NCBI RefSeq assembly: GCF_000001735.4
Contig: NC_003071.7
Location: 6,813,151-6,877,150, forward strand
Direction: 5' to 3'
Source of the DNA: Arabidopsis thaliana
Taxonomy: Eukaryota > Streptophyta > Magnoliopsida > Brassicales > Brassicaceae
Length of the DNA stretch: 64,000 bases
Shown here: piece after piece, positions 1 through 36,646 of the stretch
Layout of the letters: every line of letters begins with the position of its first letter
Numbering within the stretch: position 1 is the stretch's first letter
Made by a program: the position numbers and the translations under genes
Notes under the pieces: model-generated
Database searches by the model: none
Seen by the model: only the letters and a program-made list of their open reading frames with translations
What the model was told of the DNA's origin: nothing

Positions 1-1044
1 GAGATTAAACTAGGTTTAGAAGGGACACGTGTTTAATTATCTGTTCTTGCGCATGTTGGATGAGAAAAGATGCCGATATGACTCATCACCGCCATCTTGA
101 GTTGAACCGTCGATCGAAATTACCTAGTCCGTCGTTGAAATTTGAACCATCATAATTATTAAACTCTGGAACACGCGACATAGCAAGAGGGCAGATCAGT
201 TGCAAAACACACTCTCCTGAACTGTTCTACGCCGGCCACCAAAGCTCCACTCAACACAATTCACGATCTTAAAGAGGCACCTTCATCGTTACCAGATTAT
301 GGTGCCAACATGGGAATGAAGGCTTTATTCTTTTCTTACTCAGAATTGAGCAACGAATGGTCTACAAGATTCTGAATTAGACACTCAGCTTCTAAGATTT
401 AAGATATGCAAAAGGTGGATCAAAACTATACAAATTAAAAAAAAAAGCCATAAAGGCTAACAGAAGCTCGCACTTAGGCGAGAAAACAAAAACCGGACAA
501 AGCCAAAGACAAAAAATCCGACACAACATCACCTGGAATTAAAAGAGAAGAGCTTTCTCTTTCTCAAAGATTTTAGTGTGAGAAGAGGTTGTCTATTGTG
601 TAAGTGTGGTTAAGTAATGGTTGTTATTTAACGACAGGGTCGTCGAATAAACAACGTGTTTTAGGGTTTTAGGGTTAGTGTTCAATCGATTTGGGGATTT
701 TGTGAGGTTGAGCAAACGACGTCGTTTCTCTAATAAACGATCTCATGAACGTCTAAGTGACATCGTCTAATCGTTCCGTTTAGTCAGTTAACGTCGTGGC
801 TAATTTGGCTTCGTCAACGAAAGTTTGAGAATTTATTCGAAGAACAAATTGTTGATGATTTAAATCAACACATACAAAGTTTATGCTTTAAATCACGGCA
901 AATGGCAAAGTCATTATTTAAATGACATTTTTCCCATTTTTGTTTTTAGTAAACTAATTTTCCAGAAAAACACTGAATTTAATTTCGGTTTTGTAAATTC
1001 AATTAATTTGCGCCAAAAATCGGAATGAACCAAACTAATAACAT
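1..1044. other. 5' intergenic stretch, no gene recognised
   Basis: No open frame of useful length and no recognisable protein domain on either strand. The only notable motif is a short interstitial telomere-like run at about 659-678 (two TTTAGGG-type units on the plus strand, equivalent to a telo-box AAACCCTAA-type motif on the minus strand). Telo-box motifs are common in promoters of plant organelle and translation genes, so it may belong to the PPR promoter, but it lies about 700 bp from the PPR start. Confidence 0.6.
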
Positions 1045-1340
1045 TAAACCGAAATGCCGAATCCCAATTTCAACCGTAAACTGTATCATCACTCATAAAC
1101 CGAAATGCCCAATCCAATTTAAACCGTAAATTATATCATCACTCAAAAACCGAACTGCCCAATGCCAACTTAAACCGTAAATTGTATCAGATACTCATAA
1201 ACCGTAAATTATATATCATCACTCATAAACCGAAATGCCAAATCTAATTTAAACCGTAAATTGTATCAGATTTCATAAACCGAAATGCCAAATCCAATTT
1301 AAACCGTAAATTGTAGTATCAGACACTCATAAACCGCGTA
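1045..1340. repeat. Tandem array of about 50-bp units upstream of the PPR gene
   Basis: Units beginning AAACCGAAATGCC recur at 1045, 1097, 1147, 1227 and 1277, with partial units at about 1199 and 1331. The spacing is 50-52 bp, apart from the disturbed 1147-1227 interval, which holds a truncated copy. Each unit has two AAACCG blocks separated by an AT-rich linker and a CATCACTCAT-like tail. The array ends about 30 bp before the PPR start codon, so it probably overlaps the promoter or 5' UTR. Confidence 0.85.
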
Positions 1341-1370
1341 AACCTCTCTTCAATTCATCTTTCCTGAGCC

Positions 1371-3254
1371 ATGAGACGTTTCACAGTCCCCTGTATCTTA
1401 CGCCACCGAATCTCAATTCTTTCCGGCGCCGGCTATTCTCCTGCCGCCGCTCGTCTTTCCTCTTTAGCACAAACATCAACTCCCGAGTCAGTATTACCGC
1501 CGATAACTTCTGAAATTTTGCTCGAGTCGATAAGATCTTCTCAGTGGCATATCGTCGAACACGTTGCAGACAAACTCACACCTTCGCTTGTATCTACAAC
1601 TCTACTCAGCCTCGTCAAGACTCCTAATTTAGCCTTCAATTTCGTCAACCACATCGACCTTTATCGCCTGGACTTTCAAACACAGTGTCTAGCCATCGCT
1701 GTCATCTCCAAGCTCTCTTCTCCAAAACCCGTTACTCAGTTACTGAAAGAAGTCGTTACTTCTCGTAAGAACTCAATAAGAAACCTTTTCGATGAATTAG
1801 TGCTTGCCCATGATCGATTAGAGACGAAAAGCACGATTCTTTTCGATCTCTTAGTCAGATGTTGTTGTCAATTGAGAATGGTTGATGAAGCCATAGAGTG
1901 CTTTTACTTGATGAAGGAGAAAGGTTTTTATCCCAAAACTGAAACTTGTAATCACATTTTGACTTTGTTATCAAGGTTGAATCGTATAGAGAACGCTTGG
2001 GTCTTCTATGCTGATATGTATAGGATGGAGATTAAATCGAATGTGTACACTTTCAATATAATGATCAATGTATTGTGTAAGGAAGGGAAGTTGAAGAAGG
2101 CTAAGGGTTTTTTAGGTATCATGGAGGTTTTTGGGATTAAGCCAACTATAGTGACTTACAACACTCTTGTTCAAGGGTTTTCTTTGAGAGGACGAATCGA
2201 AGGAGCTCGTTTGATTATCAGTGAAATGAAATCTAAAGGCTTTCAACCAGATATGCAGACGTATAATCCGATTCTGTCTTGGATGTGTAATGAAGGAAGA
2301 GCTTCTGAGGTGTTGAGGGAGATGAAGGAGATTGGGTTGGTTCCGGATTCTGTTTCGTACAATATTTTGATCCGTGGTTGTAGTAACAATGGGGATTTGG
2401 AGATGGCTTTTGCTTACAGGGATGAGATGGTGAAACAAGGTATGGTGCCGACGTTTTATACTTACAACACGTTGATACATGGTTTGTTTATGGAGAATAA
2501 GATAGAAGCTGCTGAGATATTGATTAGGGAGATTAGAGAGAAGGGTATAGTTTTGGATTCTGTCACTTACAATATACTGATAAATGGTTATTGCCAGCAT
2601 GGAGATGCAAAGAAAGCATTTGCTTTGCATGACGAAATGATGACCGATGGAATTCAGCCTACGCAGTTTACTTATACGTCGCTTATTTATGTCCTGTGTA
2701 GAAAAAATAAAACGAGGGAAGCGGATGAGTTGTTTGAGAAAGTTGTGGGAAAGGGAATGAAGCCTGATCTTGTGATGATGAATACCTTGATGGATGGTCA
2801 CTGTGCTATAGGCAACATGGACCGTGCATTTTCGCTTCTTAAAGAGATGGACATGATGAGTATCAATCCTGATGATGTGACATACAATTGTTTGATGCGA
2901 GGGCTATGTGGAGAAGGGAAATTTGAGGAAGCTCGTGAGCTGATGGGAGAGATGAAGAGAAGAGGAATCAAACCTGACCACATTAGTTACAACACTCTAA
3001 TAAGTGGGTATAGTAAGAAAGGGGATACAAAGCATGCTTTCATGGTTCGTGATGAGATGTTGAGTCTCGGGTTTAATCCTACTCTTCTCACTTACAATGC
3101 TCTGTTAAAAGGTTTGAGTAAAAACCAGGAGGGTGAACTAGCAGAGGAGCTGCTAAGGGAAATGAAAAGTGAAGGCATCGTTCCTAATGACAGCTCCTTT
3201 TGCTCTGTCATTGAGGCAATGTCTAATTTGGATGCAAAAAAATCTGATAGTTGA
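1371..3254 (+). CDS. AT2G15630: P-class pentatricopeptide repeat protein, predicted mitochondrial
   Basis: Intronless 627-residue frame, typical of plant PPR genes. The N-terminus (about 1-40) is rich in Arg, Ser and Ala with almost no acidic residues, as in a mitochondrial transit peptide. From about residue 154 to 606 I count 13 consecutive P-type motifs, each with the TYN(T/I)LI...G...A..L..EM...GI.P pattern; the fifth is about three residues short, the others 35. A 21-residue tail follows and there is no E, E+ or DYW extension. P-class PPR proteins bind organelle RNA one base per motif and stabilise, process or help splice transcripts; the target here cannot be read by eye. The start is the first in-frame ATG and begins the transit peptide. 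The gene is convergent with the F-box gene 388 bp downstream. The locus name is from memory of the protein and its neighbours. Confidence 0.93.
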   Translation: MRRFTVPCILRHRISILSGAGYSPAAARLSSLAQTSTPESVLPPITSEILLESIRSSQWHIVEHVADKLTPSLVSTTLLSLVKTPNLAFNFVNHIDLYRLDFQTQCLAIAVISKLSSPKPVTQLLKEVVTSRKNSIRNLFDELVLAHDRLETKSTILFDLLVRCCCQLRMVDEAIECFYLMKEKGFYPKTETCNHILTLLSRLNRIENAWVFYADMYRMEIKSNVYTFNIMINVLCKEGKLKKAKGFLGIMEVFGIKPTIVTYNTLVQGFSLRGRIEGARLIISEMKSKGFQPDMQTYNPILSWMCNEGRASEVLREMKEIGLVPDSVSYNILIRGCSNNGDLEMAFAYRDEMVKQGMVPTFYTYNTLIHGLFMENKIEAAEILIREIREKGIVLDSVTYNILINGYCQHGDAKKAFALHDEMMTDGIQPTQFTYTSLIYVLCRKNKTREADELFEKVVGKGMKPDLVMMNTLMDGHCAIGNMDRAFSLLKEMDMMSINPDDVTYNCLMRGLCGEGKFEEARELMGEMKRRGIKPDHISYNTLISGYSKKGDTKHAFMVRDEMLSLGFNPTLLTYNALLKGLSKNQEGELAEELLREMKSEGIVPNDSSFCSVIEAMSNLDAKKSDS

Positions 3255-3641
3255 AAAATTGTTGGTTTCTTGAAAAGCTTCTGTTATGAATCTGTTGTTA
3301 ATCATGTCACGAGTTAGTGTTATCCTTTAGATCAGACTTATACTTTGACTTGAGCTCTGTGAATTGGGAACTTACGTCAGAATAGCCAACCGCAATATAA
3401 TGCTATGTTCAATGAATTTAAGGATATGAACATGTTCTTGTTACAAGGTTCTTTTGATAATGACACAAAAGTTACGAGTTGAGAATGAATGTGCTTCTTC
3501 AATAGAGCATAAACGCATAAATAAGAGTGACAATTAAAAAACAAAAACGCATAGAAAAGAGCACAAAATGAAGTTGCCCATTGCTTTCAGCCTTTCACTT
3601 AACTCCAATGATCGTCTATGTCCTTCTTCTCGTTGCCCCTC

Positions 3642-24132: not shown

Positions 24133-24137
24133 AAACT
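24133..24137. repeat. Target-site duplication of copia element 2, left copy
   Basis: AAACT directly before the 5' LTR is repeated exactly at 30176-30180 after the 3' LTR. Confidence 0.92.
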
Positions 24138-24583
24138 TGTTGTTTGGATTTGACATAATACAATTATTGGGCCTTAATAGGCCAACGAAATTGGCAAGGT
24201 GAAGAAGAACAAAAGTGTGGGCAAAAGTCTGTGCCCCATTTACGTCACCTATAAATGCATTACAACGTGCGACGTATAGTGGAGGTAGGTGAAAAAAGAA
24301 TCTAAAGAGAGTTATAGAGAAGAGAGATAAAAGAGCTTCTAAAGCAACCTTTCTTCTTCCTCTTTGTTGTTTTTGAATTTTTGTTCTTCTTGAGTGTAAA
24401 TCTGTAAAAACCAAAAGACAACATCACAAGTTAGTGGTGTGTTTGTAATCCCTTTGATATAGTGAAGCTTGGGAGCAAGACATCTCCCCCGAGACGTAGC
24501 GGTTGAGGCCGTGAACTCGGTTATCAATTTTCTGTGTCTGTTTATTTCTTTACCAAGCAATCTCTATCACTCTTTTCTCCACA
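24138..24583 (+). repeat. 5' LTR of copia element 2
   Basis: TG...CA termini, 446 bp, with a TATAAAT element at about 24250-24256 just downstream of TACGTCACC. It matches the 3' copy at roughly 95 percent by my manual count. Confidence 0.94.
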
Positions 24584-24585
24584 AG

Positions 24586-24597
24586 TGGTATCAGAGC
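24586..24597 (+). other. Primer-binding site (initiator tRNA-Met) of copia element 2
   Basis: TGGTATCAGAGC two bases after the 5' LTR. Confidence 0.93.
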
Positions 24598-24672
24598 TCC
24601 AGGCTTGTATAGGGTTGTTAAGGAGTTTCAGCTAAGGAGTTTCAGATCAGGGGTTACAAGAAGTTTTAAAAG

Positions 24673-27600
24673 ATGAGTAGTAACGCTCGGGTTGAGGTTG
24701 ACAGATTTGATGGAACCGGTGACTTCTCTTTGTGGAAGGTCAGAATGTTGGCTCATTATGGTGTTTTAGGGCTAAAAGGTATCTTGAACGATGAGCAGCT
24801 GCTAAGAGATCCACCTGTTATAGAAGAGGAAGCTGCAGTAGCTGGAAGAGACTATCACGTCGGAGATTTTGAGCTGCCTTCCAATGTTGATCTTATAAAG
24901 TTTGAAAAGTCAGAGAAGGCAAAAGATCTTATAGTACTAAACGTGGGAAATCAAGTACTAAGAAAGATCAAAAACTGTGAGACAGCTGCAGCCATGTGGT
25001 CCACATTAAAGAGGTTATACATGGAGACTTCTCTACCTAATCGAATCTACTTACAGCTTAAGTTCTATACTTATAAGATGACTGATTCTAGAAGTATAGA
25101 TGGGAATGTGGATGATTTCCTTAAGCTAGTTACTGATCTAAACAACATAGGAGTAGATGTGACAGAGGAGGTTCAAGCTATACTATTGTTGAGTTCATTA
25201 TATGACCGGTATGATCAGCTCAAAGAGACGTTAAAGTATGGCAGAGACACTTTGAGCTTGAATGAAGTCATTGGAGCTGCAAAATCAAAGGAAAGAGAAC
25301 TCACAGAAAGTGGAAAGCTCTCAAAGTGAAGGTCTGTATGTGGAACAAGAGGCAGATCAGAGAAGAGGTTTGAAAAAGGAAAAGGCAAACCATGGAGAGG
25401 ACGTTCTAAGAGCAAAGGCAGATCAAAATCAAGGCCAAAGTACAATAAAAACAACAAGGGTTGTTTCATCTGTGGTAAAGAAGGACATTGGAAGAGGGAG
25501 TGTCCTGAAAAGTCTTCACAAGCCTTCAAGTTCAGCAAACATTGCAACGGAGCCAAAACAGCCACTAGTATTAACAGCTAGCCCTCAAGACACTAAGGAA
25601 GAATGGGTTATGGATTCTGGATGTAGTTTTCACATTACACTAGACAAGGATTCTCTGTTTGACCTACAAGAATTTGATGGAGGCAAAGTTTTGATGGGTA
25701 ATATGACTCACAGTGAAGTGAAAGGGATTGGTAAGATTAAGATCTTAAATCCAGATGATTATGTGGTCATATTAACAAATGTGCGGTACATACCTACAAT
25801 TGGAGAAGAGCGGCTGCAAGTATGAAGGAAAAGACTTTATAGTCACTTTCTACAAAGATGGACAGAAAGTCATTTCTGGAAAATATCAAGATGGGCTGTA
25901 CTATCTAGAAGGAAAAGTAGTAAAAGGAGAAGTTGCAGTGGCAAGACCAGACATTGACATGACTAGCTTATGGCATTCTAGGCTGGGTCATATGAGCTTG
26001 AAGAACATGAATGTGCTGGTTGAAGAAGGTTACTTGTCAGGAAAAGAAGTAGACAAGCTGGAATTTTGTGAGAGTTGCGTACTTGGAAAATCTCACAAAC
26101 AAAGTTTCCCAACTGCTAAGCACACTACTAAAGGTATATTAGATTATATACATTCTGATCTCTCGGGATCTCCTTCTACTCCAGAAAGTCTTGGTGGTTG
26201 TAGGTACTTTGTGAGCTTCATTGATGATTTCTCAAAGAAAGTATGGGTGTATTTTCTGAAGACCAAGGATGAGGCATATCACAAGTTCAGAGAATGGAAA
26301 CAAGCAGTTGAGAATCAAACGGGCAAGAAGATTAAGTATTTAAGGACTGATAATGGTCTTGAATTCTATAATACACAGTTTGACAACTTGTGTAAGGAAG
26401 ATGGAATTAAAAGGCACAGAACGTGCACTTATACACCGCAGCAAAACGGTGTATCGGAGAGGATGAACAAGACCATTATGGATATAGTTAGAAGTATGCT
26501 TGCTGAGACAGGAATGAGTCAAGAGTTTTGGGCTGAGGCTACTTCTACGGCAGTCTACTTAATCAACAGAACACCGAACTCGTTTATTGGTTTCAAGCTA
26601 CCTGAGGAAGTGTGGACAGGTACAAAACCAGATTTAAGTCATCTCAGGAGGTTTGGATGTTCAGCCTATGTCCATGTCACTCAAGACAAGACAAGTCCAA
26701 GAGCAGTCAAAGGAGTTTTCATGGGATATCCTTGTGGTATTAAAGGATATAGAGTCTGGTTACCGAAAGAAGGGAAATGCACTACAAGTAGAAATGTGGT
26801 GTTCAATGAAACTGAGTTGTACAAGGACACATTAAGTAGTGCAGATGAAAGGAAAGAGGAAGCTGAAAAAGAGTACAAGAAATTGAAGAAAGCTAGAAAA
26901 AGAGTGTCCTTCAGCCATGATCTTCTCAGAGGTCCTTCAACTAGCTGCTGTGATTTGGATGACTCATCTTCTCAAGGTGGAGAAACCTCCTCATCTTCAT
27001 CAGAAAGTTCAGAAAACTTAGAGGAATCAGAAATGAATGAGGAAGTTGTTGGATCTGAAAATGAGCAGTCTCTGGATGATTACTTATTGGCGAGGGACAT
27101 GAAACGAAGAAGTAATATCAGGCCTCCTTCCAGATTTGAAGACGAAGATTTCGTAGCTTATGCATTGGCAACAGCAGAAGACTTGGAAGAAGAAGAGCCT
27201 AAGTCTTATGAAGAAGCATTGAAAAGTAGTAAGAGAAAGCAGTGGGAAAATGCAATGAAAGAGGAGATGGATTCTCATAAAAAGAGTCACACTTGGGATT
27301 TAATTGAGAAACCAGAAAAGCAGAAGCTGATTGGATGCAAGTGGATTTTTAAATTAAAGCCAGGCATACCAGGAGTTGAGAAACAGAGATACAAGGCTAG
27401 ACTTGTTGCTAAAGGTTTCTCGCAGCAAGAAGGTATTGATTATAATGAAGTGTTTTCTTTAGTGGTGAAGCATGTCTCCATCAGGTTAATGTTGTCACTT
27501 ATGGTTAACATGGATTATGAGCTGGAGCAAATGGACGTTAAAACAGCTTTTCTGCATGGTAATCTAGAGGAAAGGATCCTAATGAGTCAGCCTGAAGGAT

Positions 27601-28700
27601 TCATACAAGAGGGAAACGAAAATAAAGTTTGTTTGTTGAGGAAATCCCTATATGGCCTAAAACAGTCTCCTAGACTTTGGAATCAGAGGTTTGATGCATT
27701 CATGAAGGATCAGAAGTTTGAAAGAAGCTGTTATGACCCATGTGTCTACATGAGAGACACTCAAACAGACAAAGCTATCTACTTGTTGCTCTATGTTGAT
27801 GATATGTTGATAGCTTCAGGGAATATGGCTATCATACAAGAGCTTAAAAACAAGCTGAATTGTGAGTTTGAGATGAAAGATTTGGGAAGGCTTCAAGAAT
27901 TCTGGGTATGGATATCATAAGAGACAGAGAAAAGGGAGAATTAATTCTGTCTCAAGGAAACTACTTGGAGAAAGTGTTAAAACGTTTGGAATGCTTGAAG
28001 CAAGACCAGTGATTACACCAACTGCTGCTCACTTCAAATTCAGAAGTTTGTCAGAAGAAGAAAAGAAAACAGAAGCTGTTCACATGGAAAGAATTCCATA
28101 TGCAAATGTTGTGGGGAGTTTAATGTACGCCATGGTTGGTTCAAGGCCAGATTTAGCATTTGTAGTGGGTTTTATCAGCAGATTTATGTCAAGTCCAGGA
28201 AGGGAGCATTGGTCAGCAGTAAAATGGGTGTTAAGGTATTTAAAAGGTGCATACACTCAAAACTTGATTTTTAAGAAGGATTCTAAGTTCTGCATTGAAG
28301 GATTTTCAGATTCAGATTATGCAACAGACTTGGACAGGAGAAGATCAGTGACAGGATATGTGTTTAAAGTTGGTGGAAACACAATTTCGTGGAAGTCAAG
28401 TTTACAGTCTGTTGTGGCTCTTTCAACCACAGAAGCAGAGTATATGGCTCTTACTGAAGCAGTGAAAGAGGCCATTTGGTTGAAAGGTTTGTGTTCAGAA
28501 TTGGGTTTTAAACAAGATAATGTTATGGTTCATTGTGATTCGCAGAGTGCTCTAGCCCTAGCAAAGAATTCAGTTCATCACGAAAGAACCGAGCACATAG
28601 ACACTAAATTCACACAACAGTCAATCCGACAGATTTCTTAACTAAGACGGTACCTGGTCAAAAGTTCCAGCTTTGCTACGAGCTTCTCAACATCCACTGA
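24673..28700 (+). pseudogene. Broken copia gag-pol polyprotein of element 2
   Basis: Starts at the ATG at 24673 with a gag opening (VDRFDGTGDFSLWKVRM). Lesions in order: frame switches around 25310-25350 with an in-frame TGA at 25327; the CCHC knuckle (CFICGKEGHWKREC, about 25460-25500) lies in the original frame, while the protease (VMDSGCSFHIT) lies in another; a gap or frameshift near 25800-25825 between VRYIPTIG and LEKSGCKYEG; then a long intact frame 25779-27920 with integrase (LWHSRLGHMS, HSDLSG, RTDNGLEF, YTPQQNGVSER) and reverse transcriptase (YVDDMLIASG); frameshifts near 27900 and 27985; RNase H (SDSDYATDLD, STTEAEYM); and an internal deletion near 28605-28625 before the natural C-terminus (FLTKTVPGQ), which ends at 28700. 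No complete product is possible. Confidence 0.92.
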
Positions 28701-29739
28701 GATGGAGCAGCGGCTACAAGTAACTCCAACAGTCTCGCAAAACAGGAAGAAACAAGATGAGTCAGTTTTGTGAGAAATACTCAAGTGTCATAATTGAGTA
28801 AGGCATTAAATTGGAGTTGGTGTTACCTGTTAAGTGCTGGAACTGCGTAGGAGTTGCAAGTTCCAGGTGGAGTATCTGACTACACAGTTTCAGAAAGAAA
28901 TTGGGTTAGGAAATCTCATAATGTTGTGAGATTGAAAAATTGCTACAAGAGATGGTGATTAACGGCAGGTAATTACGTGAAAGCTGTTGTTATTGTGCTG
29001 AGAGGAATATCAGTTTCAGGTGGAGTCCTCTAAGAAGCCAGCTGAAATCGTTGGGTGTGGTGATTCAACTATTAACAAAGCAGATCGAGTCAGATCACTT
29101 GGTTAAAATTTGAATCGCAAAATCAGTTGGTGAGGAAGAGCTTACCTAAGGTCGAAATTGATTGGGTATTATCTCATCGAAGAAGTTGTGGAGTTCGCCA
29201 GAGAAGTTGTGCCAATCACCCGAATTACATTAAAAAAAAAAAAATCAAGTTTTTTCAGATTCTCTGGAAATATTAAAGGATCCTAGTCTCTAAGTGTGAC
29301 AAGAAAGAGATTAGAGAGTACCTTTGATGAACCTGGAGTTACAAAGGAGGCTGTGGTCAGAATCTAAAATTGATTCCAATTTTTATCATCTTCTCTTCAT
29401 CACGGGAAAGAGAGGAAGCTTGGAAGAGATTGGTGAAGATGAGAATGGGAGATTATGAGGAGATCACAGCCGGAGCTAATCGCTGGAGAAGACGGCCATG
29501 ATGTGTCATGGAAGGAAGGTGAAGATGAGAGACAACGAGATGTCTCAGATTCGCCAAAGTTTGATACCAACGGGAACAGAGGTGTCAGCCGGTGATGGAG
29601 AACGTCGCCGGTGTAAAACGCCGGAGGTAATGGCAATCCGGTGGTGTCGTTGTTGGCTTCACGAAGGGACAAAGGGAAAAGGTGGTTTCAGATAACGATT
29701 TCGTCGAGGAAGATTGTGTTTTGTCAAAAGGTGGAGAAT
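28701..29739 (+). other. Long 3' non-coding interval inside copia element 2
   Basis: About 1 kb between the pol stop and the 3' LTR, far longer than the few bases separating pol from the LTR in element 1. It contains a 90-codon minus frame (29400-29672) and a GC-richer section with repeated GCCGG blocks, but no domain I recognise. It may be a family-specific 3' untranslated region or captured host sequence. Confidence 0.6.
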
Positions 29740-30175
29740 TGTTGTTTGGGTTTGACATAACACAATTATTGGGCCAACAAAATTGGCAAGGTGAGGAAGA
29801 ACACAAGTGTGGGCAAAAGTATGTGGCCCATTTACGTCACCTATAAATGCATTACAACGTACGACGTATAGTGGAGGTAGGTGAGAAAAGAATCTAAAGA
29901 GAGTTATAGAGAAGAGAGATAAAAGAGCTTCCAAAGCAAGCTTTCTTCTTCCTCTTTGTTGTTTTTGAATCTTTGTTTTTCTTGAGTGCAAATCTGTAAA
30001 AACCAAAAGACAACATCACAAGTTAGTGGTGTGTTTGTAATCCCTTTGATGTAGTGAAACTTGGGAGCAAGAGATCTCCCCCGAGATGTAGGGGTTGAGG
30101 CTGTGAACTCGGTTATCAATTTTCTTTGTCTGTTTATTTCTTTACCAAGCAATCTCTATCACTTTTTTCTCCACA
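29740..30175 (+). repeat. 3' LTR of copia element 2
   Basis: 436 bp, TG...CA, following GGTGGAGAAT. It lacks a 10-bp block found in the 5' LTR. Confidence 0.94.
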
Positions 30176-30725
30176 AAACTAGATAAATTTGGTGTTGGCG
30201 AGTTGGGTTCCACATGCCAAAGATATTTGCCAAGCCATTATGTGTTTTCAAACATAAATGCTGCAATATAATTTTTGACCCCAAAAAAAAAATTGTTTCA
30301 CACCATTCATTAATTGGCTTAATCCGTAGAACATCCTAACTTTACTAATTGGAAACCCTAATTAGAACTCTCGTAAATTTCAGACACTACATACACACAT
30401 ACATATTTCCAAGACTCCTCGATATCTTGGAAATATAAATAAAATGTCATAATAAATATATGGTGTGAACTAACTATGAACACTTGGACATTAGACTCAT
30501 GAGTAAACGACTCTTCGTTTTCTAATGACGTTTTGGAGACTGCTCCACCTTCCTTCACACACTATTTCCAAGACTCCTCAATAAATCTAGTAAGTCATAA
30601 TAACATTGATTTCGCTTTATTCCTTTTTCTCTCCATATATTAACAATCTTCCAGGTTCATTAGGACTAGAATAGTTGTAGATGAATTAAGGTCGTAGTTG
30701 AGTATAATAATTGGTTCATGCACAG
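30176..30725. other. Intergenic / lost 5' part of the MATH gene
   Basis: Starts with the right AAACT duplication. A TTTCCAAGACTCCTC block occurs twice (about 30408 and 30562), followed in both cases by related AT-rich sequence with a GTCATAATAA element, so it looks like a local direct duplication. I found no in-frame ATG exon that would start the MATH gene. Confidence 0.45.
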
Positions 30726-31924
30726 GAGATTCTACAATTGTGAATAACTTGAGAGAACATCCTCCTTCTTCTTACTCCCTCAAGATCAACAAACTTTCTC
30801 AACTTACTTTTGACAAATATGAATCTCATCGTTTCTTGTCCGGTGGATACAACTGGTACGTGATCTTTGTTATAAACGGATTACTTCTTTCATAAAGTGT
30901 GTTGACCTATATTTCCATTAAAAAAAACAGGAGATTGGTTATATACCCAAAAGGAAACGAAAAAGACAAAGGAAGTGGATTTATCTCTATGTATGTGGAA
31001 TTTGACAACACAAAAGTCTCGTCTACATCACCAATGGAGGTGTTCGCATATATCATTTTCTTCGTCTACAACAAGAAAGAAAACAAATACTTTACCATTC
31101 AAGGTTCGTACATACATAGCCTACTCTCTCTATCTATATATATATATATACACACATATGCATTGATTAGAAATCTTTGTATAAATATACGTCTAGATGT
31201 TGAAGTAAAGCGGTTCAATGCATTAAGAACGGTGTGGGGATTATCACAAGTTCTTTCACTTGAGACATTCAATGACCTTGAAAATGGATACACATTTGAG
31301 GGAGAACAATGTGAGTTTGGTGTTGATGTGATGGTTGCTTCACCCATTACCAAGTGGGAAGTCGTCTCTTTTGATGAGAAACTCGATATTCTCAAGTTCT
31401 CCTGGAGTGTTAAGGATTTCTCGGTGCTTAAAGAGGAGTTCTATGTATCAGAAAGATTTTCAATGGGAGGAAGATTATGGTGAGTCTATAAAAGTATTAT
31501 ATATGTCCATTTTTGGTAACTGCTAAAACGTGCATAATAACGTTTTATAGGGATCTTCAAATGTATCCAAAGGGAGACCCTAGAAGAGATAAAAAATGGT
31601 TATCCATTTTTTTGCGGTTATCTGGTAGTGAAACCTTAACGGTGGATGAGAAGATTTACGTGATAGCACATCTGCGAGTTCTTGACCCACGTGGATGAAA
31701 TCACTTCACTAAAAATGTATGCTCTTTTGTTAGAGCTTATTCATGAGATCAAAAATTGTAGATGTTGTTGGGGTTCTTGACTTATGGATTTTAAAGTGTC
31801 CTGCTCACTTTACAGACATTACTTTTTCTTGCAGTTGGCAACTGGTTCAGGGACCGGAACAAAGGGTGGGGTTATCTTGAATTCTTGTCTTTTTCTAAAC
31901 TTCGGAAATCATACTTGGACCTAG

Positions 31925-31934
31925 AAGATACTTT
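31925..31934. repeat. Target-site duplication of LINE 1, left copy
   Basis: AAGATACTTT is repeated at 35263-35272 on the other side of the LINE. Removing the LINE and one copy restores the MATH reading frame across the junction. Confidence 0.9.
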
Positions 31935-34900
31935 TTTTCCCCTAAACTTGTAAATATCATAAAATATGAAGTTAGGGTAATATAAAGACATTACCAAAGC
32001 AAAGCAACCAAGGCAAAAATAATAAAAACAAGGTTACAATAGAGCTAGATAAGATTTGGGAGAAGCTAACGGATCCAAAGCACCATAAGCTCCCGCCAAT
32101 GCTTCTTGTGCCTCCTAGAAGAGATGATGTTGCGCAGCTCACGGTCGATCTGACGAATGACCACAGAACAAGAGACTCGAAGAGAGTTGTGGAGGACATT
32201 GTTTCGCTGCCTCCAAAGGCTGTACACCACGAGATTAGCTACCACTTTCCGAAGGAGAGTAGGAGCTGCTGAAGAAGAAAGCCTTGTCCAAGAGAGAAGC
32301 TCCTACCATGAGCAGAACAGCCGCTGACGAGGGCAGAGCCTGAGGAAAACCAGCATCCAAACCTGAGAAGAGAAATCACAAAGCAGCAGAAGATGGTTCC
32401 TTGTCTCGGTGTCAACAGAGCAAAGGCAACATTCAGCAGAGTTGATAAGGCCCCAAGAAAGCAGCCTGTGAAGGGTAGGGAGACGGTTAAGGTTAGCTAT
32501 CCACATGGTAAAAGCGTGTTTAGGAACAGCGCCTTTGAACGTGATAGACTTTGTCCAACCCTTCAAAGAACTCCTACGCCTGAAACCCTCCCAGGTTGCG
32601 GCGACTGAGAAGCCCTGACTAGCGTCTCCATTCATACTCCAAAAGTAACAGTCACTGTCCAGATGAGGCAGAGGAGCAGGGAGCGAAGAGAGAAGAGCGA
32701 AGATAGAGTCAGCTGTGATTGACCGTGGCAGAGGATGCCTCCATCCCGAAGCGTCAAAAGCATCTGCTACCTTTGCGTTTAAAGGAATTCTCAGCGGTCT
32801 CAATTCAACATTACCCAAGAGCTTAATCAAGGGGCCCTTATAAGTCCAATTATCAAACCAGAACGAAGCCTTTAAGACATTTCCCACTTTAGCTTTGACG
32901 AACCGCTCCGCCAGGGGCCTTAGATTTAGCAACATTTTCCAGCTCCAAGGGTCACTAATGTTAGCCTCCACCCGCCAGAAAGAAGACTCCCTAAGACGAT
33001 GATGGCACTACCACTGAACCCACAGAGAATCTGAACGGTTAAACAGGAACCAAATAAGCCTTAGAAGAAGCGCTTTGTTCCACTCACTAAACCGCTTAAA
33101 ACCCAAACTGCCTTCACTCTTTGGGAGGCAGGAATGCACCCAAGAGACTTTAGCGCCTTTACCCACATCAATATTACCCGACCAGAGGAATTTGGAACAA
33201 AGACCTTCCAGCTTTTTAATGCAGCCCTTGGGCAGAAGGAAAGTAGACATCCAGAAATTGATTAAGCCAAATATAATCGAAGAGATAAGCTGCGCCCGAC
33301 CTGCGAAAGACAAGGACTTGGAGACCCAAGATCAGAATCTAGAAGAGAGCTTCTCCAGCAAAGGACCATATTCAGCAATTCGCAGCTTGCGGCACATCAA
33401 AGGGAGACCTAAGTACCGGATAGGGAAGGCTCCTTCTGGGAAACCATAGGCAACAGAGGCGCTCCTCTCAGTTAAATCCAGACCCGCTTGGAACAGCTGA
33501 CTTTTGTCCTTATTAACTCTAAGGCCAGATCAATCCGCAAAGTCATCAAGCGTCTCGCAAATACTGTGCAAAGAAGAGCTTCCCCCATCAGAAAAGATCA
33601 TCACATCTTCCGCAAACATCAAATGGGAGATAGAGAGGTCTCTTGTCTTTGGGTGGTAGTGAATATAACCAGAGTCATAGCGAGAATAAAGCAGCTTGGA
33701 GAACACTTCCATGGCTAACACGAAGAGGTAGGGAGACAAGGGATCACCTTGCCTTAGACCTTTAGTACTGTTGAAAAAACCTCCCGAGACCCCATTAATA
33801 GAGATTGAGAAGGAAGGCATTGAGATGCACTGATAAATCCAGTTGATGAACCGATCAGGGATTGCAAGCGCCCTCAAAGCTGCAATGACAAACTCCTATT
33901 TGACGGAGTCAAAAGCCTTTCTCAAATCCACCTTGAGCATTCCCCAAGGTGAGATATGCAACCTGTTATAACCATGAACCATCTCCGTGGTAAAGAGAAC
34001 ATTCTCAGCTAAAGATCTTCCAAGCAAGAAAGCCGACTGAGATTGACCAATCACTTCTGAAAATAAGCCCTGCAACCTGCCAGTCAAAAACTTAGATATA
34101 ATTTTGTACAGCGTATTAAGGTAGGAGATGGGCCTAAAATCTGATATGAAAGAGGCGTTAGAGGTTTTAGGGATTAAGACAAGGGTGGTAGCATTCCACT
34201 GCTTAAGGAGCTGCCTAGAGATAAAGAACTCGTGAATGGCAGCAGTAACCTCCGACCCAATAACGCTCCAGGAATCTCTAAAAAATTCAACCGGATACCC
34301 GTCAGGCCCACTAAATTTGTTCCGCGGGAGAGATTTGAAAGCTGCTTTGATCTCATCATCACTAAACAGCCTTTACATCTCAGTAGACTGCGCCTGAGAG
34401 CACCTATAGGTAAGCAGCAGGTTCATGTCATCTTGCTCCAACGAGAAGGGAGTCTCAACCTCACCCAACAGCCTCTCATAATAGGCCATACAATGATCAA
34501 TAATACCTTGTTGGGAGTCAATCACCACCCCATTGCAGTCAACAAGGGACTTTATGGGGTTAAAACACTTTCTGGAATCCGCCATTCTATGGAAATAGGA
34601 AGTATTGCTATCACCCTCAGCAAACCAAGAAACCCTGGATCTTTGATGGAAGAAACTCTCCTCAGCAGAGGAAAGCAAAAGCCACTTACGCTGAGCCTCC
34701 AGTTCCAAGGCTGCATTGAGATCGGAGGCATTGGCAAGAGTCAGGTCTTGGCGCCTTAAAAACCACTCATGAGCCTCTTTTGTACGCAGCTCTATACCAG
34801 AATAATTGAGCCTACTGAAGTCTTTAATAGGCTTCTTGAGGGCTTTCAGCTTTTTAGAAACCCTGAACATGTGAGACCCAACCACGTTAGTTGAATACCA

Positions 34901-35262
34901 ATTTTCTATAACAACATTCAAAAACTCCTCATTATTCAACAGAAAATTATAGAACTTGAAGGGACGCTTAACACTAATACCATCAGCCTCCAACACAACC
35001 CCACAAGACACATGATCTGAGAAGTCCAAATTACCAAAGACACCAAAGACGGAGGCGACACCGGAAGACCCATCCCGAACACCAGAAGAGACAGAGGATG
35101 CAGCACGAGCACAGACTGCTGCGAACTTAGAAGAGCTTGTGACCACCCCACGAAGAAGCTTCTTTTTCTTTTTCTTTGGCATTAGAACAGAAATTTCCGA
35201 CCACCGACGTGAGGCCGACGTTGGGGAAAAAGAAGCGAAACGAAGAAAAGAAAGGTTTTTAA
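31935..35262 (-). mobile_element. 5'-truncated L1-type LINE inserted in the MATH gene
   Basis: Minus-strand non-LTR element of 3328 bp, defined by 10-bp duplications. Its 3' end is on the left, with only a short T run as a poly(A) trace. Fragments of ORF2 in order: the post-endonuclease region (SDHVSCGVVLEADG, then WFAEGDSNTSYFHRM) at 35250-34373; reverse transcriptase blocks (GQSQSAFLLGRSL, KVDLRKAFDSV, GLRQGDPLSPYLF, and the active site reading FAED instead of FADD) at about 34362-33530; and the C-terminal region with a zf-RVT-like segment (FKGAVPKHAFTMWIANLNRLPT...C.LC...H) at 32971-32303. ORF1 and most of the endonuclease are missing, and stops or frameshifts separate the pieces. It is inactive. 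Confidence 0.9.
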
Positions 35263-35272
35263 AAGATACTTT

Positions 35273-36646
35273 GAATATAGAGATCGAATTTAATGTTGTT
35301 TCTGTCACCAAACGCTCAGCCTAAATCGAAGCTCTACCTATCTTTAAGATATCTATTATCTACCATGCATCAACTACTAGGACTACTCTTTTTTTGCGTT
35401 TTATTAATTATCTTTTTACTTATTTAATTTTCTATAATGTAATCTTGTTTTTCTTAACCTAGCTAGTATATTTTATTTTGGTGTGGTGAACATCCAAATT
35501 AATATATAAGAATGTTTGAAAAAATAATATATTAATATCAACGCTCATTGTGTTCTTATAACAAAAAAGTAAATAAAAAAGTAGTTGCTTTCGTTTATTA
35601 ACATTGCTTTTCTATATAGAGTTTATATTATGTTGCATAATATGAAAGGTCTGTTATCCAAATAATTAAAAAAGATGCACTGCTCGGAGCCTTCTAATTA
35701 AAATACTTTATACACTAGACGTATGCTAAAAACACCGTATTGTCTTTTACATAGAGATCATATAACAAAAAAATGTATATATAATTTTTTCAGTATATAT
35801 GAATATATAATTATAATGATACAATAACAAAAAAAGCCATAAAATTGATATGGGTCAACTTTCCAATTTTCAGTTTGTAAAAATATGATTATCTAACAAT
35901 TTTCAGTTTTTTGTTTTTGTTTTTTTCAGTTGTTTTGTAACACCTCCGAAATCCGAACTATACAAAACTAAGAGTATGCCAATTGTTCGGTTGTCGAATA
36001 ACGTTTCACAATTACGCAACTTGAGAAAAACTAAACGTAGGTGAAAAACAAGAAAGCTAACTACAGTATGTGGATTCAGTCAAAACTTAAACCCAAAAAA
36101 ATCCGAAGAATCCAAAAACTAAAAGAGCAAAACATAAGTCAAACCTAAAAAAATGGAATGGGTCACACGTTATTAACTAATATACTACCTGATGCTTAAT
36201 GCTTCTGAAATGAACACATAAAAAAAATTGAATAAAATAAATAAATTAGATAAATAAAAATAAAAAGATGTCGGAATCATCAAAACGTCACCGTTTCATA
36301 GCTCAAGAGCTCCGTCCTCGAACTTTGCGCTTCAATTCCCAAAAAGTTTCTTAATTTTTTATTTTTTCTCCTGTGTAAGTGCAAACATCTAAATTCCCAA
36401 GAACCAAAACTAAAGATCCGTAAATTCGAAGCAACATCAACGTTCTCGAGCCTCTCTAATTATTGTTTTATAGACCAAAAATTCTTCGTTTTTCTTTTTT
36501 CCAGGAATTTTTAATTTGTATGGGCTGATCAGAAAAAAGCCACTTTGTGTTTTCTTTTTTAGCTGGACGGTGTCTGAATCATTCAATGCCTTTCTCTTCT
36601 CTACCTTTCTAAATCTCTCTCTCTCTATCTCTCCATCGAAGCAGCC
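35273..36646. other. Intergenic between the MATH relic and the P-loop gene
   Basis: After the MATH stop at 35324 the DNA is strongly AT-rich without coding signal. The last few hundred bases, with pyrimidine-rich CTCTCT runs just before 36640, are the presumed promoter and 5' UTR of the P-loop gene. Confidence 0.55.

Follow-up and report, generated by a model that had tools for sequence, protein, structure and literature searches.

The locus AT2G15710 of Arabidopsis thaliana is, we are confident, an ordinary case of gene loss in which an antisense, internally deleted L1-like LINE came to lie in the last exon. In the window (the whole 64,000-nt stretch of DNA analyzed, C2:6813151-6877150), comparison with paralogs supports a LINE with target site duplications (TSDs) within the last exon of a gene with two MATH domains, together with a predicted empty site that is exact and in frame. 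The LINE would be one of several hits on this gene, and the locus probably no longer yields a working MATH protein. Retrotransposon insertion into an exon is common; what this locus adds are the other lesions of the gene and a published protein model whose two ends very likely derive from transposons.

A LINE in a gene of A. thaliana Kil-0 offers a comparison; in the excerpted report it is 5.7 kb long and intronic, occurs in ten accessions, and has a demonstrated effect on the transcript (PMC4619661). As in that excerpt, the LINE in the window lies within an Arabidopsis gene, whose product it would alter. Unlike the Kil-0 element, it is 3.3 kb long, exonic, and part of the reference genome, and its effect is a predicted one.

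The insertion site and the interrupted last exon

The LINE is flanked by identical 10-bp TSDs, AAGATACTTT (31925-31934 and 35263-35272), and the same 10-mer is absent elsewhere on both strands of the window. Once the LINE and one copy of the TSD are removed, the last exon (31835-31934 joined to 35273-35324) is in frame and translates as GNWFRDRNKGWGYLEFLSFSKLRKSYLDLEDTLNIEIEFNVVSVTKRSA, followed by the natural stop. The tblastn match of the joined exon spans the insertion point in nine of the ten paralogs compared; the remaining one, on C3 near 7.106 Mb, gave no tblastn match to the last exon. The best paralog match was L008, with YLDKEDALNVEIEFKVVSATKYSP against YLDLEDTLNIEIEFNVVSVTKRSA in the joined window sequence. 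The coordinates of all features are collected in the table.

Table. Features of the AT2G15710 region, in window positions
Feature	Position	Strand	Basis or remark
copia LTR retrotransposon	24138..30175	+	LTRs 24138-24583 and 29740-30175
First two exons of the rebuilt AT2G15710 model	29498-29626, 29667-29790	+	copia internal 3' region and 3' LTR
MATH gene exon 1	30710..30855	+	starts ATT GGT TCA TGC; exon homology, upstream sequences of paralogs
MATH gene exon 2	30931..31103	+	paralog matches (tblastn), GT/AG borders
MATH gene exon 3, end of first and start of second MATH domain	31197..31479	+	paralogs, Pfam
MATH gene exon 4, to the donor equivalent to the paralog donor	31551..31716	+	TGA at 31696-31698
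Left part of last exon	31835..31934	+	ends with left TSD copy, 31925-31934
LINE (L1-like non-LTR retrotransposon), 3328 bp	31935..35262	-	3' tail at 31935, 5' end at 35262
LINE tail read as coding, FFPLNL and TAA	31935..31953	+	last six residues and stop of the published model
Right TSD copy, AAGATACTTT	35263..35272	+	sequence comparison with left copy
Displaced C-terminal part of last exon, DTLNIEIEFNVVSVTKRSA then TAA	35265..35324	+	first residues lie within TSD copy

To the right of the insertion point, the 19 residues of the joined exon had a total BLOSUM62 score of 314 against six paralog tails, which were hand-picked from the tblastn matches of the ten paralogs. None of 20,000 shuffles of these residues reached that score (best, 170). 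The window contains 44,707 57-base frames free of stops; apart from the right-hand fragment itself, none of them reached it, the next best being at 128.

Pfam recognizes two MATH domains in the gene, with the profiles PF22486 and PF00917 each matching two stretches. When the core was kept the same and the tail alone was exchanged, the score for PF00917 rose from 57.2 bits (profile positions 1-101 of 113) to 64.1 bits (1-112), and that for PF22486 rose from 130.9 to 136.5 bits. When the rest of exon 4 as far as the paralog donor was included as well, with its lesions written as X, the scores were 76.9 bits for PF00917 and 149.7 bits for PF22486. For PF00917, this total gain of 19.7 bits comes from changing the exon-4 residues and the tail together, and the tail by itself contributes 6.9 bits. 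The insertion would have cost the protein 17 C-terminal residues, with which the second MATH domain ends, and supplied FFPLNL and a stop from the LINE instead.

The sequence-only reading of this DNA had placed a LINE between duplications here, and the exact, window-unique 10-mer bears this out to the base. The in-frame pre-insertion state that it proposed likewise agrees with the TSD, the joined frame, and the paralog match, and the C-terminal fragment does match MATH paralogs, as it had anticipated, both in the tail scores and in the Pfam gain. The putative empty site is the one given by the paralogs and by the TSD of the reference genome; for one LINE event, it would provide a base-exact pre-insertion state. 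An assembly artifact or a chance direct repeat in place of an insertion is exceedingly improbable, as the TSD sits exactly at the ends of the LINE with its 10-mer otherwise missing from the window and as joining restores both frame and homology; our search for support of such an artifact or repeat found none.

The LINE may have entered the last exon by target-primed reverse transcription. The top strand would have been cut after AAGATACTTT in the context CTTT/GA, which is close to the TTTT/AA cut site of L1-type elements. The T-rich 3' end of AAGATACTTT could then prime on the A-tail of the LINE, and repair would leave the 10-bp duplication. In a transcript entering from the left, translation would continue for six residues within the LINE and then end at a stop.

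An internally deleted LINE

The reading frame of the LINE runs from an ATG at 35182 through the reverse transcriptase (RT) and zf-RVT regions to an end that it has in common with the related copy L022, against which it has six premature in-frame stops and no frameshift. In Pfam, a segment bounded by two of the stops matched RVT_1 (PF00078, 51 bits), and another segment matched zf-RVT (PF13966, 74.9 bits). On its own strand, the 3' end of the element is GGGGAAAA, with a short A-rich tail. By its ends as read, which differ from each other, the element has no LTRs. The paralog and LINE sets used here consist of the best-scoring candidates of searches in the same genome. Among the matches listed, the best long match to the LINE at other loci was 77% over bases 225-3321, and shorter 3' pieces were at 82-83%.

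Exo_endo_phos had no Pfam match in the N-terminal piece of the window copy; the C1 relative encodes this domain (PF03372, 57.6 bits) just before the breakpoint. Around element bases 164-216, the window copy has 51 and 54 bases versus 2317 and 2264 in the C5 and C1 relatives, respectively, and the net internal deletion amounts to ~2.2 kb. Across the deletion, the start of ORF1 and the last part of the endonuclease region form a single open frame. Judged by its sequence, the window LINE retains the start of ORF1 without most of ORF1 and the endonuclease, and it is a defective derivative by deletion and not an autonomous member. Such an element would have been either mobilized in trans or shortened on landing, and we favor shortening during reverse transcription. 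A short CCTC-like common stretch at the breakpoint (unscored, by eye) seems to fit a template jump better. An origin of the deletion from spliced RNA was rejected, with no AG just before the 3' breakpoint (four relatives, by eye).

From L022 to the window LINE, we counted 130 C-to-T and 131 T-to-C changes and 77 G-to-A and 63 A-to-G changes, and no clear C-to-T or G-to-A decay bias was found against L022. The comparison of the two copies gave a dN of 0.127 and a dS of 1.47 (984 codons, with dS near saturation), and most of their divergence therefore arose under constraint. With changes polarized by L025, the window LINE has 167 synonymous, 113 nonsynonymous, and 7 stop-creating changes versus 157, 84, and 3 in L022, a modest excess for the window copy; each changed base was counted singly here, so that a change counted as stop-creating does not always result in a stop codon.

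Further lesions and the order of events

The ten paralogs were covered to different extents: the start was read in six and the end of exon 4 in seven, and tails were scored in six. The sequence-only reading had taken 30726 as an exon start, which is wrong, because paralog homology extends farther upstream, uninterrupted by an intron, as far as an ATT at position 30710. All six paralogs read have ATG at this position. Counting upstream from the ATT, the fifth codon is an in-frame TAG, with no ATG in between. The window has TGA at 31696-31698, where six of the seven paralogs with a call have TCT or TCC (Ser) and one has AAC (three of the ten had no call). By eye, we counted 12 bases from a conserved CAC to the exon-4 donor in the window and 13 in each of the seven paralogs read there. 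Exon 4 is one base short and would therefore shift the frame if spliced at the paralog-equivalent donor. With an alternative donor at 31691 (C/GTGGAT), the TGA and the missing base would both become intronic and the frame would be kept. Given the ATT start, the TGA, the missing base, and the LINE, no open frame runs from an ATG to the natural stop.

Apart from these lesions, the coding sequence has decayed little. At well-shared codons, the window gene has four synonymous changes and one nonsynonymous change of its own; the ten paralogs have between 2 and 21 nonsynonymous changes. A codon was taken as well shared if six or more paralogs covered it and 75% or more of these agreed, start and stop codons were not counted, and tblastn pieces of neighboring copies were left out (L007 above 2400, L012 above 3000, and L008 below 1000). 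The death of the gene may therefore be recent, or an altered form of it may still be expressed.

In the L009 paralog (C3 near 7.781 Mb), we observed an in-frame stop in the third exon (KN-stop-YIFEG, about 1517-1795), so another member of the MATH family may be dead. Exon 3 of the L007 paralog (C1 near 26.198 Mb) is seemingly frameshifted, with two overlapping tblastn pieces at about 1731-1802.

Upstream of the gene lies a copia element with the TSD AAACT (24133-24137 and 30176-30180). It has the same orientation as the MATH gene and ends 534 bp before the ATT. Its LTRs differ by 22 substitutions in 436 aligned bases (~95% alike; K2P, 0.0525). At the rates used for LTR dating, 1.5e-8 and 7e-9 per site per year, the LTR divergence roughly suggests an age of 1.7 to 3.7 million years. 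Following the 5' LTR is TGGTATCAGAGC, which we take to be a PBS-like motif. Pieces of copia sequence that are 88-94% alike occur on C3 around 12.5 Mb.

The claim that the gene was recognizable as a MATH gene when the LINE landed stands on the TSD, the frame, and the paralogs. It does not extend to function, because no fewer than three other differences from the paralogs would also disable the gene. We give nearly an even chance to the view that the LINE landed in a gene already dead from the loss of the start codon, the stop, or the copia insertion. The several independent differences from the paralogs and the divergence of the copia LTRs speak for it, and the slight coding decay speaks against it. 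It is also a serious possibility, though one that we would sooner doubt than accept, that the LINE disabled a working gene and that the start loss, the stop, and the missing base followed under relaxed constraint. The few amino acid changes that the MATH exons have of their own suggest constraint until recently, and the displaced tail is still well conserved. However, the start loss, or the stop with the missing base, would each disable the gene alone, and we found nothing that dates these three lesions after the LINE.

The published AT2G15710 model

AT2G15710.1 is listed as At2M4, an ordinary member of the At2M group, in the excerpted survey of the MATH family, with 365 aa, 42,558.1 Da, a pI of 5.861, and coordinates 6,842,648-6,845,103 (PMC4923191). 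According to the excerpted descriptions of tandem-MATH genes (Class I of Brassica rapa, PMC3664471; the At2M group, PMC4923191), these share the two MATH domains with the window gene. The exon pattern and the C-terminal motif of the window gene are the same as those of the paralogs in its own genome. In contrast to tandem-MATH genes, its start, exon 4, and last exon are disrupted. In the mainly open-access literature searched, we found no report, among the matches listed, of AT2G15710 being split by a LINE and no mention of AT2G15700 or AT2G15720.

In the window, the printed coordinates start exactly at an ATG (29498) and end with the third base of a TAA (31953). We rebuilt the model with five exons fixed within 30726-31953, using a donor after 31690, and with two upstream exons enumerated from the ATG. 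Seven open models with 365 residues resulted. The mass of the best one is 42,557.86 Da, within 0.3 Da of the printed value, and that of the next is 42,568.24 Da. The computed pI of the best model, 5.80, is slightly off the printed one, presumably because of the pK set. This rebuilt model skips the TGA; its last residues are YLDLEDTFFPLNL, and its stop codon is the TAA in the LINE tail.

The AT2G15710/At2M4 model is thus very likely a chimera of N-terminal exons from copia, a splice around the TGA, and an end from the LINE tail. At2M4 was counted in the family survey, and both of its ends would be copia and LINE sequence; its length, predicted mass, and predicted localization would therefore depend on an annotation artifact. 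A corrected annotation of AT2G15710/At2M4 would be useful. Rice pseudogenes annotated as functional, as described in an excerpted report, are likewise cases of an automatic model passing for a functional gene (PMC2724416). Unlike those in the excerpt, the AT2G15710 model takes its ends from two different transposable elements.

The same parts could in principle form a live chimeric gene, with a promoter in the 3' LTR of copia, the first exons, a shifted donor, the MATH core, and a C terminus with its stop codon taken from the LINE tail. With 365 codons open, these parts agree exactly with the published coordinates and mass, and the strand and proximity of copia would suit such a promoter. We nevertheless consider a live gene of this kind very improbable. 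The printed coordinates run from ATG to TAA without untranslated parts, and the model therefore looks like a pure prediction. A live gene would also require the C/GTGGAT donor, which is weak by the splice consensus, and a border at 30726, a position through which the paralog homology passes.
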